DNA of 64,000 nucleotides from Sphingomonas sp. SCN 67-18. GTDB lineage: Bacteria > Pseudomonadota > Alphaproteobacteria > Sphingomonadales > Sphingomonadaceae. A model generated the notes under the pieces. That model saw only the letters and a program-made list of their open reading frames with translations. It had not been told where the DNA came from and searched no databases. The stretch spans positions 62,001-126,000 of the forward strand of contig NZ_MEFG01000013.1 of the NCBI RefSeq assembly GCF_001724715.1. The letters run 5' to 3'. Position 1 is the stretch's first letter. Each line of letters opens with the position of its first letter. Of this stretch, positions 49,054 through 56,008 are shown piece after piece. Position numbers and translations under genes: made by a program.

Positions 49054-49077
49054 ACGCGGCCCGCCCGCGCCAAACCC

Positions 49078-50406
49078 TTACCCCAGCGGCAGCCACAGCG
49101 TCGCGCGCAGCCCGCCTTCCGGGCGGTTGGCGAGCGTCAGCCTGCCGTTCTGCGCCAGCACGATCGCCCGGGCCAGCGCCAGGCCCAGCCCCGCGCCGCC
49201 CGTCTCGCGGCTGCGTGAATTGTCCAGCCGGGTGAACGCCTCGAACATATGGTCGATGGCGTCGTCGGGAATGCCCGGCCCGTCATCGTCGATCAGCACC
49301 GCCACGCCGCCGTCCCCCGGCTGCACGCTCACCCGCGCGCCGCCGCCATATTTGACCGCATTTTCGATGAGGTTGCGGATCGCCCGCTTCATCAGGTTCT
49401 GCCGCATGGTGACGGCGATGCGCGGCGCGTCCTCCAACGTCACCGCCGCACCCAGATCGCGGAAATCCTCGATCACGCTGTCCACCAGCGCGGGCAGGTC
49501 CACCCGCGTCTCCGGCTCGCTCGGCCGCCCCAGCCGCGCCAGCGACAGGATGTCGTCCAGCGTGCGGTTCATATCGTCGATGGTCTGGGCCATCCGCCCG
49601 CGCTCCGCCTCGTCCTCGACGAATTCGGTCCGCACCCGCAGCGATGCCAGCGGGGTGCGGAGGTCATGGCCGATGGCGCCCAGCATCCTGTCCTTTTCGT
49701 CCAGCATCGCCGCGATGCGGGTCCGCATGTCGTTGAAGGCGTGGATCAGGCGGCGGATATCATTGGGGCCGCGCTCGACGATCGGGGCGGCGGGCGCGGT
49801 ATCGGTGAACCTGTCCGCCGCGACGCGCAACTCCGCCAGCGGCCGCGCCAGCCGCTGGCCGATCCACAGCAGCGGCAGCAGCACCACGCCGTAAAGCACC
49901 ATGGTCTGGAACAGCAGCCAGCCGATCACCCGCCCGTCATTGTCCGGAAAAGGCGCCGCCGCGGAGACCCAGCGGTCCGGCGCGATCTGGGCGGAGAGCA
50001 GCAGCACCCGCCGCCGCTGCGCCGCCGCCCGGCGCAGGGTGCCGGTGGCATTGTCCATCCTGACCGTGATTTCGCGCGCGGGCACTTCGGCGGCGATCAG
50101 TTGGCCGACGCTGAGGCCGATATCGTGCAGCAGGTCGCGCGCCCGCGCCGCCGCGTCGGGCCGCTGCACCATGGCCGGCGTCACTGGCGTCGCCAGCGTC
50201 TCGAAGGCCTTGCGTCCCGGCGCGGCATTGGCGCGGCTTATCGCCTCGGCCAGTCGGGCGGTGGCGAGCGTGCTGGTCTGGATAAAGCCCTGCCGCTGGT
50301 TGGATTGCAGCAGCAGCACGAAATTGATGGTCTGCGCCACGAGCAGCGCCAGCGCGACGAGCAGCGCCAGCTGGGTGCCCAGCCGCCGGGGCAGGAAACG
50401 GCTCAC
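49078..50406 (-). CDS. Sensor histidine kinase of a two-component system
   Basis: 442 residues from a GTG at 50406 that overlaps the response-regulator stop (GTGA). It has a first transmembrane helix (LALLVALALLVAQTINFVLLL), a periplasmic domain of about 120 residues, a second helix (LLFQTMVLYGVVLLPLLWI), HAMP, the phosphoacceptor H-box AIGHDLRTPLASLR, the N-box NLIENAVKYG, and the G-boxes DDDGPGIPDD and GGAGLGLALA. It is complete. The EnvZ-like layout suggests sensing of an envelope signal; the ligand is unknown. Confidence 0.95.
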   Translation of the reverse strand: MSRFLPRRLGTQLALLVALALLVAQTINFVLLLQSNQRQGFIQTSTLATARLAEAISRANAAPGRKAFETLATPVTPAMVQRPDAAARARDLLHDIGLSVGQLIAAEVPAREITVRMDNATGTLRRAAAQRRRVLLLSAQIAPDRWVSAAAPFPDNDGRVIGWLLFQTMVLYGVVLLPLLWIGQRLARPLAELRVAADRFTDTAPAAPIVERGPNDIRRLIHAFNDMRTRIAAMLDEKDRMLGAIGHDLRTPLASLRVRTEFVEDEAERGRMAQTIDDMNRTLDDILSLARLGRPSEPETRVDLPALVDSVIEDFRDLGAAVTLEDAPRIAVTMRQNLMKRAIRNLIENAVKYGGGARVSVQPGDGGVAVLIDDDGPGIPDDAIDHMFEAFTRLDNSRSRETGGAGLGLALARAIVLAQNGRLTLANRPEGGLRATLWLPLG

Positions 50407-51128
50407 AGCCGGGTCACGTCCGCCGCCAGCGTATAGCCGCCGCCCCACACCGTCTTGATCAGCGCCGGGTTCTTGGGATCCTCCTCGATCTTGCGGCGGA
50501 GCCGGCTGATCTGGTTGTCGATCGCGCGGTCGAACGCGCCCGCCTCGCGCCCCTGCGCAAGGTCGAGCAACTGGTCGCGGGTCAGCACCTGGCGCGGGTG
50601 GGTAGCAAAGGCCAGCATCAGATTATATTCGCCGGTCGAAAGCGGCACGGAAACCCCCTCCTGGTCCACCAGCACCCGCTCGCCCGCCTTCAGCAGCCAG
50701 CCGGCAAAGGCATAGCTTGCGCTGTCCGGCGCATGCTGGCGCACGCCGCCCCGGCCCGCCCGGCGCAGGATCACCTTGATCCGCGCCACCAGCTCGCGCG
50801 GGGAAAAAGGCTTCACCACATAATCGTCGGCGCCCATTTCCAGCCCGACGATGCGGTCCGTCTCCTCGGCCATGGCGGTCAGCAGGACGACGGGGATATC
50901 GCTGGTCTCGCGGATATGGCGGGTCAGGCTCAACCCGTCCTCACCCGGCATCATGATGTCGAGGATGACGAGGTCGATCGCATAGCCCTGCAACCGCGTG
51001 CGCGCGGCGTCCGCGTCGCCCGCCTGCGTCACGCGAAAACCGGTGCGGGTGAGATAGGCGGCCAGCGGCTCGCGGATCGAGCGTTCGTCGTCGACCAGCA
51101 GGAGATGCGGCTTCTCGTCCATCGTCAT
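50403..51128 (-). CDS. OmpR-family response regulator
   Basis: 241 residues from the ATG at 51128 (an ATG at 51122 is the alternative). The receiver domain has acidic residues LVDDE, phosphoacceptor D57 (LVILDIMMPGEDG), the conserved threonine/alanine LLTAMAE and the lysine in VVKPFSP. The C-terminal winged helix contains GEYNLMLAFATHPRQVLTRDQLLDL and RLRRKIEEDP. It is the transcriptional partner of the downstream kinase. A structured noncoding stretch (51211-51367) lies upstream and may be part of its leader. Confidence 0.95.
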   Translation of the reverse strand: MTMDEKPHLLLVDDERSIREPLAAYLTRTGFRVTQAGDADAARTRLQGYAIDLVILDIMMPGEDGLSLTRHIRETSDIPVVLLTAMAEETDRIVGLEMGADDYVVKPFSPRELVARIKVILRRAGRGGVRQHAPDSASYAFAGWLLKAGERVLVDQEGVSVPLSTGEYNLMLAFATHPRQVLTRDQLLDLAQGREAGAFDRAIDNQISRLRRKIEEDPKNPALIKTVWGGGYTLAADVTRL

Positions 51129-51210
51129 CGCGCCTGCCCGGTCATCATGAAACGCCTTGTACCGCGCCGGATGCGGCGGTCCAGCCCGTCCTTGGTGCCT
51201 TGAATGGGGG

Positions 51211-51367
51211 ACGGGCTCCGCTCCAGGGGTGGAAGCGAAGCCCGTCATTGAGGTCAGTCCATGCTTCGTCGTGTCAGTCACCCGGCGAACGGACCGGCTG
51301 GGGTAAGAACCAGCCGCCCTCCGGGAGGGGTGCAGCGCCACGGCGGGGGTAAGCCGTTTGGCGCTGC
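51211..51367. other. Structured noncoding region with serial hairpins
   Basis: Four inverted repeats follow one another: ACGGGCT/AGCCCGT (51211-51245, with an inner GC-rich stem), CGGCTGG/CCAGCCG (51295-51316), CCCTCC/GGAGGG (51317-51329), and GCAGCGCCA/TGGCGCTGC (51332-51367, with inner CGGC/GCCG). The second and fourth each carry GGGGTAAG at stem and loop (51300-51307 and 51346-51353); on the minus strand these are CTTACCCC. No ORF here has convincing coding character. It could be a small RNA or the leader of the response-regulator operon. It matches no riboswitch that I know. Confidence 0.35.
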
Positions 51368-51468
51368 GCCAGCATGACGTGAACCTGCTCACGCTCCGTC
51401 ACGCTGGTTTTGCCGGCGGGGGATCACGTCCACCGACACCTGCCTTATCCCGCCCGCCTGTCGCGAGA

Positions 51469-51684
51469 TTATGTCGCCGCACAGCCGAAATTGTCGCAAA
51501 TTGTATCAAGGCTGCGGGGCAGGCAGGGCGCCGGTTCGCCCTTGAGATAATCAATCGCACCCATGTTGACGAAGCAGCCACCGCCGTGGCACTGGCGGGC
51601 CAGATCAATGAGACGGTTGTAAAACGAACTGTAAAACGGGTTCGTTGAATAGGCTCTAGGACGTTGAATTCGCGGGTGTAGCAT
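51469..51684 (-). CDS. Possible small Cys-rich ORF or gene remnant beside tRNA-Gly
   Basis: 71 codons open on the minus strand. The C-terminal 50 residues have coding-like codon choice and include four cysteines (ARQCHGGGCFVN; PAPCLPRS; TICDNFGC). The first codons run through the 5' half of the tRNA-Gly on the opposite strand, so the true start, if any, must lie further in, for example at the ATG of VNMGAIDYL. I recognise no family. It may be a decayed fragment; treat as unproven. Confidence 0.25.
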   Translation of the reverse strand: MLHPRIQRPRAYSTNPFYSSFYNRLIDLARQCHGGGCFVNMGAIDYLKGEPAPCLPRSLDTICDNFGCAAT

Positions 51685-51745
51685 AGTGGTAATGCACTAG
51701 CCTTCCAAGCTAGCTAGGAGGGTTCGATTCCCTTCACCCGCTCCA
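51672..51745 (+). tRNA. tRNA-Gly (TCC anticodon)
   Basis: The acceptor stem GCGGGTG pairs with CACCCGC, discriminator T, CCA encoded (51743-51745). The anticodon stem CTAGC/GCTAG encloses CTTCCAA, anticodon TCC, reading GGA. The T arm contains GGTTCGATTCC. Between it and metY (51746-51847) I see only a leader with an AGGAG site. Confidence 0.95.
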
Positions 51746-53247: not shown

Positions 53248-55929
<2,682 letters not shown>

Positions 55930-55961: not shown

Positions 55962-56008
55962 GCGCCACGACCGCTTCCCCAAGCGGTTGTGGCGCTTCGT
56001 TTTTGTTT
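55962..56008 (+). terminator. Strong intrinsic terminator after acnA
   Basis: A 15-base stem from GCGCCACGACCGCTT (55962-55976) to AAGCGGTTGTGGCGC (55981-55995), with one G-T mismatch pair and loop CCCC, is followed by TTCGTTTTTGTTT. The remainder of the 327-base gap (56009-56256) holds the promoter region of the next gene and the inverted repeat at 56193-56229. Confidence 0.85.

Follow-up and report, generated by a model that had tools for sequence, protein, structure and literature searches.

The operon, its promoter and the row of hairpins

The window, a stretch of 64,000 nucleotides from Sphingomonas sp. SCN 67-18, holds on its minus strand a two-component operon, arranged as promoter element, hairpins, response regulator gene (from 51128) and histidine kinase gene. 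The features considered here, with the means by which each was recognised, are:

51672-51745, plus strand: tRNA-Gly(TCC), divergent neighbour (adjoining feature)
about 51460-51507, minus strand: promoter-operator with four GCGACA-type half-sites (pattern and profile R1)
51444-51449, minus strand: -10-like GATAAG (ATAA at a fixed distance from the fourth half-site)
51411-51438, minus strand: predicted hairpin H0, loop ACGTGATCCC (MFE fold, stem scan)
51369-51407, minus strand: predicted hairpin H1, containing GAGCGTGAGCAGG, common to two relatives (MFE fold, sequence match)
51332-51367, minus strand: predicted hairpin H2, with CUUACCCC in the loop (inverted-repeat search, MFE fold, stem scan)
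51317-51329, minus strand: predicted small hairpin H3, adjoining CACCCCUCCC (MFE fold)
51295-51316, minus strand: predicted hairpin H4, perfect 7-bp stem, loop UUCUUACC (inverted repeats, MFE fold)
51257-51294, minus strand: predicted weaker hairpin H5 (MFE fold)
51208-51248, minus strand: predicted hairpin H6, lacking a T-tract, of the family of the free-standing RNAs' terminal hairpin (model R2, stem covariation)
50403-51128, minus strand: OmpR-type response regulator gene (Pfam Response_reg and Trans_reg_C)
49078-50448, minus strand: sensor histidine kinase gene (Pfam HAMP, HisKA and HATPase_c)

The best NCBIfam models for the two proteins are OmpR and EnvZ, both of which score under the equivalog cut-off (243.4 against 331 for OmpR and 182.6 against 415 for EnvZ); on sequence grounds, the pair is OmpR/EnvZ-like and not OmpR/EnvZ proper. 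Sphingomonas, Sphingobium and relatives have orthologues of the regulator that are 78-84% identical to it. On the minus strand, no open reading frame of at least 60 amino acids begins between the element and the hairpins, and two frames overlap the element.

The promoter-operator was recognised by comparing the upstream regions of relatives. Its half-sites on the minus strand are GATACA at 51507-51502 and GCGACA at 51497-51492, 51477-51472 and 51464-51459, an arrangement of the form GCGACA-N4-GCGACA-N14-GCGACA-N7-GCGACA; the array common to the relatives consists of GCGACA or GATACA, 4 bases, GCGACA, 15-16 bases, GACA, 8 bases and CGAC, with ATAA following some 10 bases on. One A of this -10-like ATAA is conserved in 78 of 79 loci, and transcription is predicted to start near 51438 on the minus strand. 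Of 397 genomes of the family, 48 match a pattern for the element that was written so as to include the window, and a reversed control pattern has none among the matches listed. Profile R1, a sequence-only profile trained on 78 loci, the window among them (alignment A1 leaves out L175 from the 79 loci), detects sites in 241 of the 397 genomes, mostly one per genome; in the genome of the window itself, the site described here is the only strong one (E 1.3e-14, the next being 0.155). A ten-base step between half-sites and an array placed just upstream of the -10 are what is expected of an OmpR-family activator. Because the element stands before the regulator's own operon, it is probably this regulator that binds the GCGACA half-sites. 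One of the possibilities raised in an earlier note on this DNA was a long leader of the response regulator gene, and that reading is now well supported by comparison of the sequences, the conserved promoter-operator (51507-51444) being directed through the hairpins into the gene.

Both inverted repeats singled out in the earlier note lie where it had placed them: that at 51295-51316 is a perfect 7 bp repeat with a loop of 8, and the other, then given as 51332-51367, was recovered as 51329-51370, with 12-nt arms of 92% identity. A further repeat, at 51210-51246, has 13-nt arms that are also 92% identical (12 pairs are listed for 51100-51460). The minus strand from 51440 to 51200 folds (MFE) into seven separate hairpins with a z of -6.30, and none of 200 shuffles was as good; the fold of the plus strand over the same region is weaker (z -3.15), and its excess over shuffles is expected of a mirror of the minus strand. 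In a scan of 402 segments of 240 nt (400 on a grid over both strands and the target on each strand), the minus-strand stretch 51440-51200 ranks first for over-stability, its energy lying 29.9-32.5 kcal/mol below shuffles, compared with a grid mean of 2.6 (sd 5.7).

The octamer GGGGTAAG, which reads CUUACCCC on the minus strand, is indeed repeated in the two hairpins, as had been claimed, but it lies mainly within loops rather than in the stems to which it had been assigned. It forms part of a 13-nt direct repeat, CGGC(T/G)GGGGTAAG, that is 92% identical, and the window contains 3 copies of it, where shuffling predicts 0.47 and 1 of 100 shuffles reaches 3; the third copy sits at the kinase stop codon. 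Separately, 11 nt of H4 spanning loop and stem (51300-51310) are complementary to the kinase stop-codon region (49077-49087); we set this candidate aside because it is within the chance range by a rough estimate and the complement was not found in L045 or L055.

That no riboswitch or housekeeping RNA fits the region, as had been noted, agrees with the database searches, in which no Rfam family matched the hairpins at gathering score. A weak match to the H6 region was obtained with 6C RNA (RF01066; 29.4 bits, E 0.053, against a gathering score of 47), and Rhizobiales-2 RNA (RF01723) reached 22.7 bits (E 1.6, against 40). Rfam models run over the 41 source loci returned tRNAs and one terC RNA only, the latter (RF03067) at L204 2235-2292, near a free-standing RNA. 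When the hairpin region was searched at the DNA level against the 397 family genomes, most matches were chance ones in coding sequence, and L020 (G199) was the only syntenic match among those examined. No description of the element or of the RNAs was found in searches of the open-licence literature.

Genes and RNAs behind the element in relatives

We found the element at 138 distinct loci, where it precedes an EF-hand gene (93 loci; class by Pfam EF-hand models, two examples tested), an RcnB-like gene (9; one tested, PF11776), the regulator gene directly (7), a non-coding RNA (15) or something else (14, of which 4 resemble the RcnB-like class), the leader and RNA classes having been assigned by hand from the sequences and L304 having been left out since the scan found no element in it. 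By eye, the element also precedes long open reading frames resembling TonB-receptor plug proteins in L165, L166, L168, L170 and L188. In relatives, an EF-hand gene usually appears to stand ahead of the same regulator and kinase genes, and the regulator gene followed the EF-hand gene wherever this was checked and the stretch was long enough. For the operon's EF-hand protein in L046 (1793-2413), the top-scoring NCBIfam model is lanmodulin (65 bits, cut-off 135), which makes a metal ion a possible signal.

The seven loci at which the element leads straight to the regulator, with no EF-hand protein between, are the window, L209, L213, L216, L217, L266 and L314; since the EF-hand gene is absent in the window, the hairpins would form a leader of about 310 nt to the regulator gene. 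In L213, L216 and L217 a tRNA also adjoins the leader. An open reading frame of 56 amino acids at element +95 (rc) in L213 (G199) corresponds to the EF-hand protein without its EF-hands: compared with the EF-hand protein of the congener L200 (2565-3095), its first 26 residues agree at 62% and its last 19 at 84%. This frame joins the signal peptide to the last helix, and it sits where the congener has the full gene. The GAGCGTGAGCAGG of H1 is common to the window and two relatives and is, in one of these (L213), the end of the EF-hand gene remnant. As for a remnant in the window, its TSVTEREQVHVM frame scores at most about 21 bits against the 93 EF-hand proteins and shuffles reach 26, so that it is the nucleotide match GAGCGTGAGCAGG and the remnant in L213, and not the frame, that favour an EF-hand ancestry.

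C-rich loops and the kinship of H6

Free-standing RNAs that the element drives in other genera are made up of C-rich-loop hairpins of this same kind and finish in a terminator. One genus (g81) has up to several of these per genome; ACUCCCUGA is present in 4 of the 11 g81 RNAs first found (L199, L201, L207 and L212), and also in three further RNAs found by model R2 (L335, L348 and L350), which were outside the training set of that model and are free-standing, of the same build and preceded by a variant element. In another genus (g76), CUCCCAC is repeated 3-4 times per RNA (L179, L180, L264 and L298), mostly in successive hairpin loops, and such 3-4-fold recurrence within one RNA is seen in three genomes.

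Loops rich in C were counted in 31 of the 47 hairpins of 18 element-driven RNAs and leaders, and G-rich loops in 1, against 51 and 46, respectively, of 2403 hairpins in 333 kb of background, the 18 having been picked after their folds were seen, by the absence of a plausible gene. Background hairpins with stems of at least 12 bp have a C-rich loop in 13 of 250 cases, several of them in this operon, and in 3 of 44 when they carry a T-tail. In a less selected set, that of the untranslated regions and spacers of the operon, a C-rich apical loop is present in 37 of 93 5' UTRs of EF-hand operons (shuffles: mean 7.25, largest 10) and in 17 of 39 spacers between EF-hand and regulator genes (mean 6, largest 10), where the shuffles keep base content only and starts are misplaced in L200, L206, L047 and L311. 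Two side observations concern other hairpins of this kind. L322 (G000:C20:16698-16739) and L343 (G082) share another C-loop terminator, with a common GTTCATATTGGCGACAGG about 120 nt upstream and no Rfam match; and, on the plus strand of the window, a long open reading frame ending at 55929 is directly followed by a terminator-like hairpin (55962-55995) that has a 15-bp stem, a CCCC loop and a T-rich tail.

A search for covarying pairs, which the earlier note had proposed as a check and whose failure it had named as a refutation, was run on the homologous hairpins of relatives; it found covariation in both the 5' UTR and the H6-type hairpins and did not refute the RNA reading. For the former, 38 of the 93 5' UTRs have at least 72 nt and a C-run, and alignment A7 comprises 33 of these (L206, L047, L091, L293 and L295 were taken out manually before aligning; L273, L274, L281 and L287 look misregistered and were kept). 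Double changes occur in 11 of its 13 pairs, in 76 cells against 30.5 when shuffled (0 of 500 as high), and the covariation score is 0.552, compared with 0.281 on shuffling and no more than 0.200 on sliding. As judged from this alignment, a long 5' UTR hairpin with a C-rich loop is kept across many genera, the loop being maintained in relatives as well as the stem.

Hairpins H0-H5 resisted alignment between genera, and the kinship that was tested is that of H6. By eye, compensatory changes can be seen in an H2-like hairpin among relatives. The covariance model R2, built from 12 terminal-hairpin sequences with the window excluded, scores H6 at 38.9 bits, with E-values of 8.4e-8 over the window and 4.2e-6 over the genome, where it is the best of the 10 matches listed. 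In the H6-type alignment of 13 sequences including the window, 4 of 12 pairs show double changes, and its covariation score was reached in 0 of 500 shuffles; when slid by +1 column the alignment scores 0.222 against 0.250, with 60.6% of cells paired against 96.8%, and comes close on two measures. Alignment A5 leaves out L179 from 14. The free-standing RNAs continue after the terminal hairpin with a T-rich end (TTTTC, TTTCA, TTCTG and similar), which is missing in the window (GUCCCC) and in L217. Since H6-like hairpins are also found at terminators of unrelated genes without the element, H6 alone is not proof of kinship; it is the element, the strand and the position that complete the case.

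A probable leader RNA of an autoregulated sensor system

The RNA made from an autoregulated sensor system very probably begins with this row of hairpins. Comparison with relatives supports the promoter, the strand, the hairpins, the kinship of H6 and the replacement of the EF-hand gene; from these we infer release as an sRNA and pairing with targets. The phosphorylated regulator would activate its own operon via the four GCGACA half-sites (51507-51460), and minus-strand transcription would begin near 51438. The first gene of the operon, which in most relatives encodes a periplasmic EF-hand protein, is here replaced by the hairpins with their C-rich loops, and the leader ends in the terminator-like H6, devoid of a T-tract, so that read-through could yield regulator and kinase. 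The loops of the leader RNA would expose runs of C and may pair with G-rich targets resembling ribosome sites. Since this promoter elsewhere gives rise to free-standing RNAs built alike, we believe, with more confidence than doubt, that the leader of this OmpR-type operon most probably acts as a C-rich-loop RNA itself or sets one free, with read-through making the regulator and the kinase.

An sRNA on the minus strand had been proposed before. The strand stands, and the proposal gains support from the free-standing non-coding RNAs with similar hairpins that the same element drives in other genera, but the window's own genome holds no free-standing copy detectable with profile R1. The accompanying suggestion, that the loops target ribosome sites, found no backing in a crude test on the same genome, in which GGGGTAAG placed 2-12 nt before an ATG gave 2 matches and the reversed pattern 2.

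The main rival, which we regard as rather unlikely, is that the leader acts in cis only and tunes translation of, or read-through into, the genes for regulator and kinase, without any RNA that works in trans. The sole strong element of the genome does precede this operon, H6 is terminator-like and has no T-tract, as an attenuator might be, and in many relatives this operon carries C-rich loops in its 5' UTRs and spacers; one loop of L216 matches, by eye, the complement of the regulator gene's ribosome site. Yet elsewhere the element drives RNAs that stand free, have T-rich terminal hairpins of their own and have no downstream regulator gene to act on, and the regulator start in the window shows, by eye, no obvious G-rich site complementary to the loops. 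It is improbable that the hairpins merely protect or end the RNA, as terminators or stability elements whose C-rich loops have no pairing role: long-stem hairpins are not generally C-rich (13 of 250; 3 of 44 with a T-tail), and the loop too is kept in relatives, with CUCCCAC 3-4 times per RNA in three genomes, even though H6-like hairpins terminate unrelated genes in the same genomes. Neutral drift of a decayed EF-hand gene would fit the 56-aa remnant that L213 retains at this place and the GAGCGTGAGCAGG that the window shares with it; given the extreme stability of the fold, the intact element, the kinship and covariation of H6 and a window frame that does not rise above shuffles against EF-hand proteins, we consider it very doubtful. 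A plus-strand RNA with GGGGUAAG loops between two transcription units is scarcely credible, for the plus strand folds somewhat better than shuffles (z -3.15) but the conserved element is directed the opposite way and no plus-strand promoter was seen.

A leader that works as or releases a C-rich-loop RNA can be set beside known systems. In E. coli, OmpR activates the sRNAs OmrA, OmrB and MicF, and OmrA/B feed back on ompR-envZ; here, too, small RNAs would be under the positive control of an OmpR-family regulator, but the RNA of the window would be the leader of the regulator's own operon, with repeated C-rich-loop hairpins and no Rfam family. The CcsR or 'cuckoo' RNAs of Rhodobacter and rhizobia likewise have tandem hairpins with C-rich loops, are cotranscribed with a small-protein gene, and are defined by the CCUCCUCCC loop motif and an upstream cotranscribed DUF1127 gene. 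In contrast, minus strand 51440-51200 holds CACCCCUCCC once, CUUACCCC twice and CCUCCUCCC not at all, and no candidate for a DUF1127 gene, as judged from open reading frames of at least 60 amino acids, begins between the element and the hairpins on that strand. The hairpins of 6C RNA also have C-rich loops, but its match to the H6 region falls under the gathering score. To our knowledge, the Caulobacter sRNA ChvR is not the leader of its regulator's own operon. It is under ChvI and UzcR and offers a likeness as an alphaproteobacterial sRNA whose promoter is bound by response regulators of envelope or metal stress (PMC12864828). The UzcR site is CATTAC-N6-TTAA (PMC8963506), whereas the element of the window consists of GCGACA repeats. 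With the element-driven C-rich-loop RNAs of its relatives, the window shares the upstream element on the same strand and the R2-type terminal hairpin, but not the T-rich end.

These comparisons suggest a new family of putatively regulatory RNAs in related bacteria. A wider view, which we put forward tentatively and with somewhat more doubt than belief, is that one OmpR-like two-component system has as its output an undescribed family of C-rich-loop regulatory RNAs, widespread among sphingomonads and related bacteria: the family would ride in the untranslated parts of the operon's mRNA in most species, in some genera it would have multiplied into free-standing sRNAs, and the leader in the window, in replacing the EF-hand gene, would itself have become such an RNA. 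If true, a class of regulatory RNA that is missing from current libraries would be tied to a sensor system conserved in a large environmental family, the GCGACA element would be a ready search handle for the regulon, and the window would present one locus at which the protein-coding first gene of an operon gave way to a structured RNA leader.
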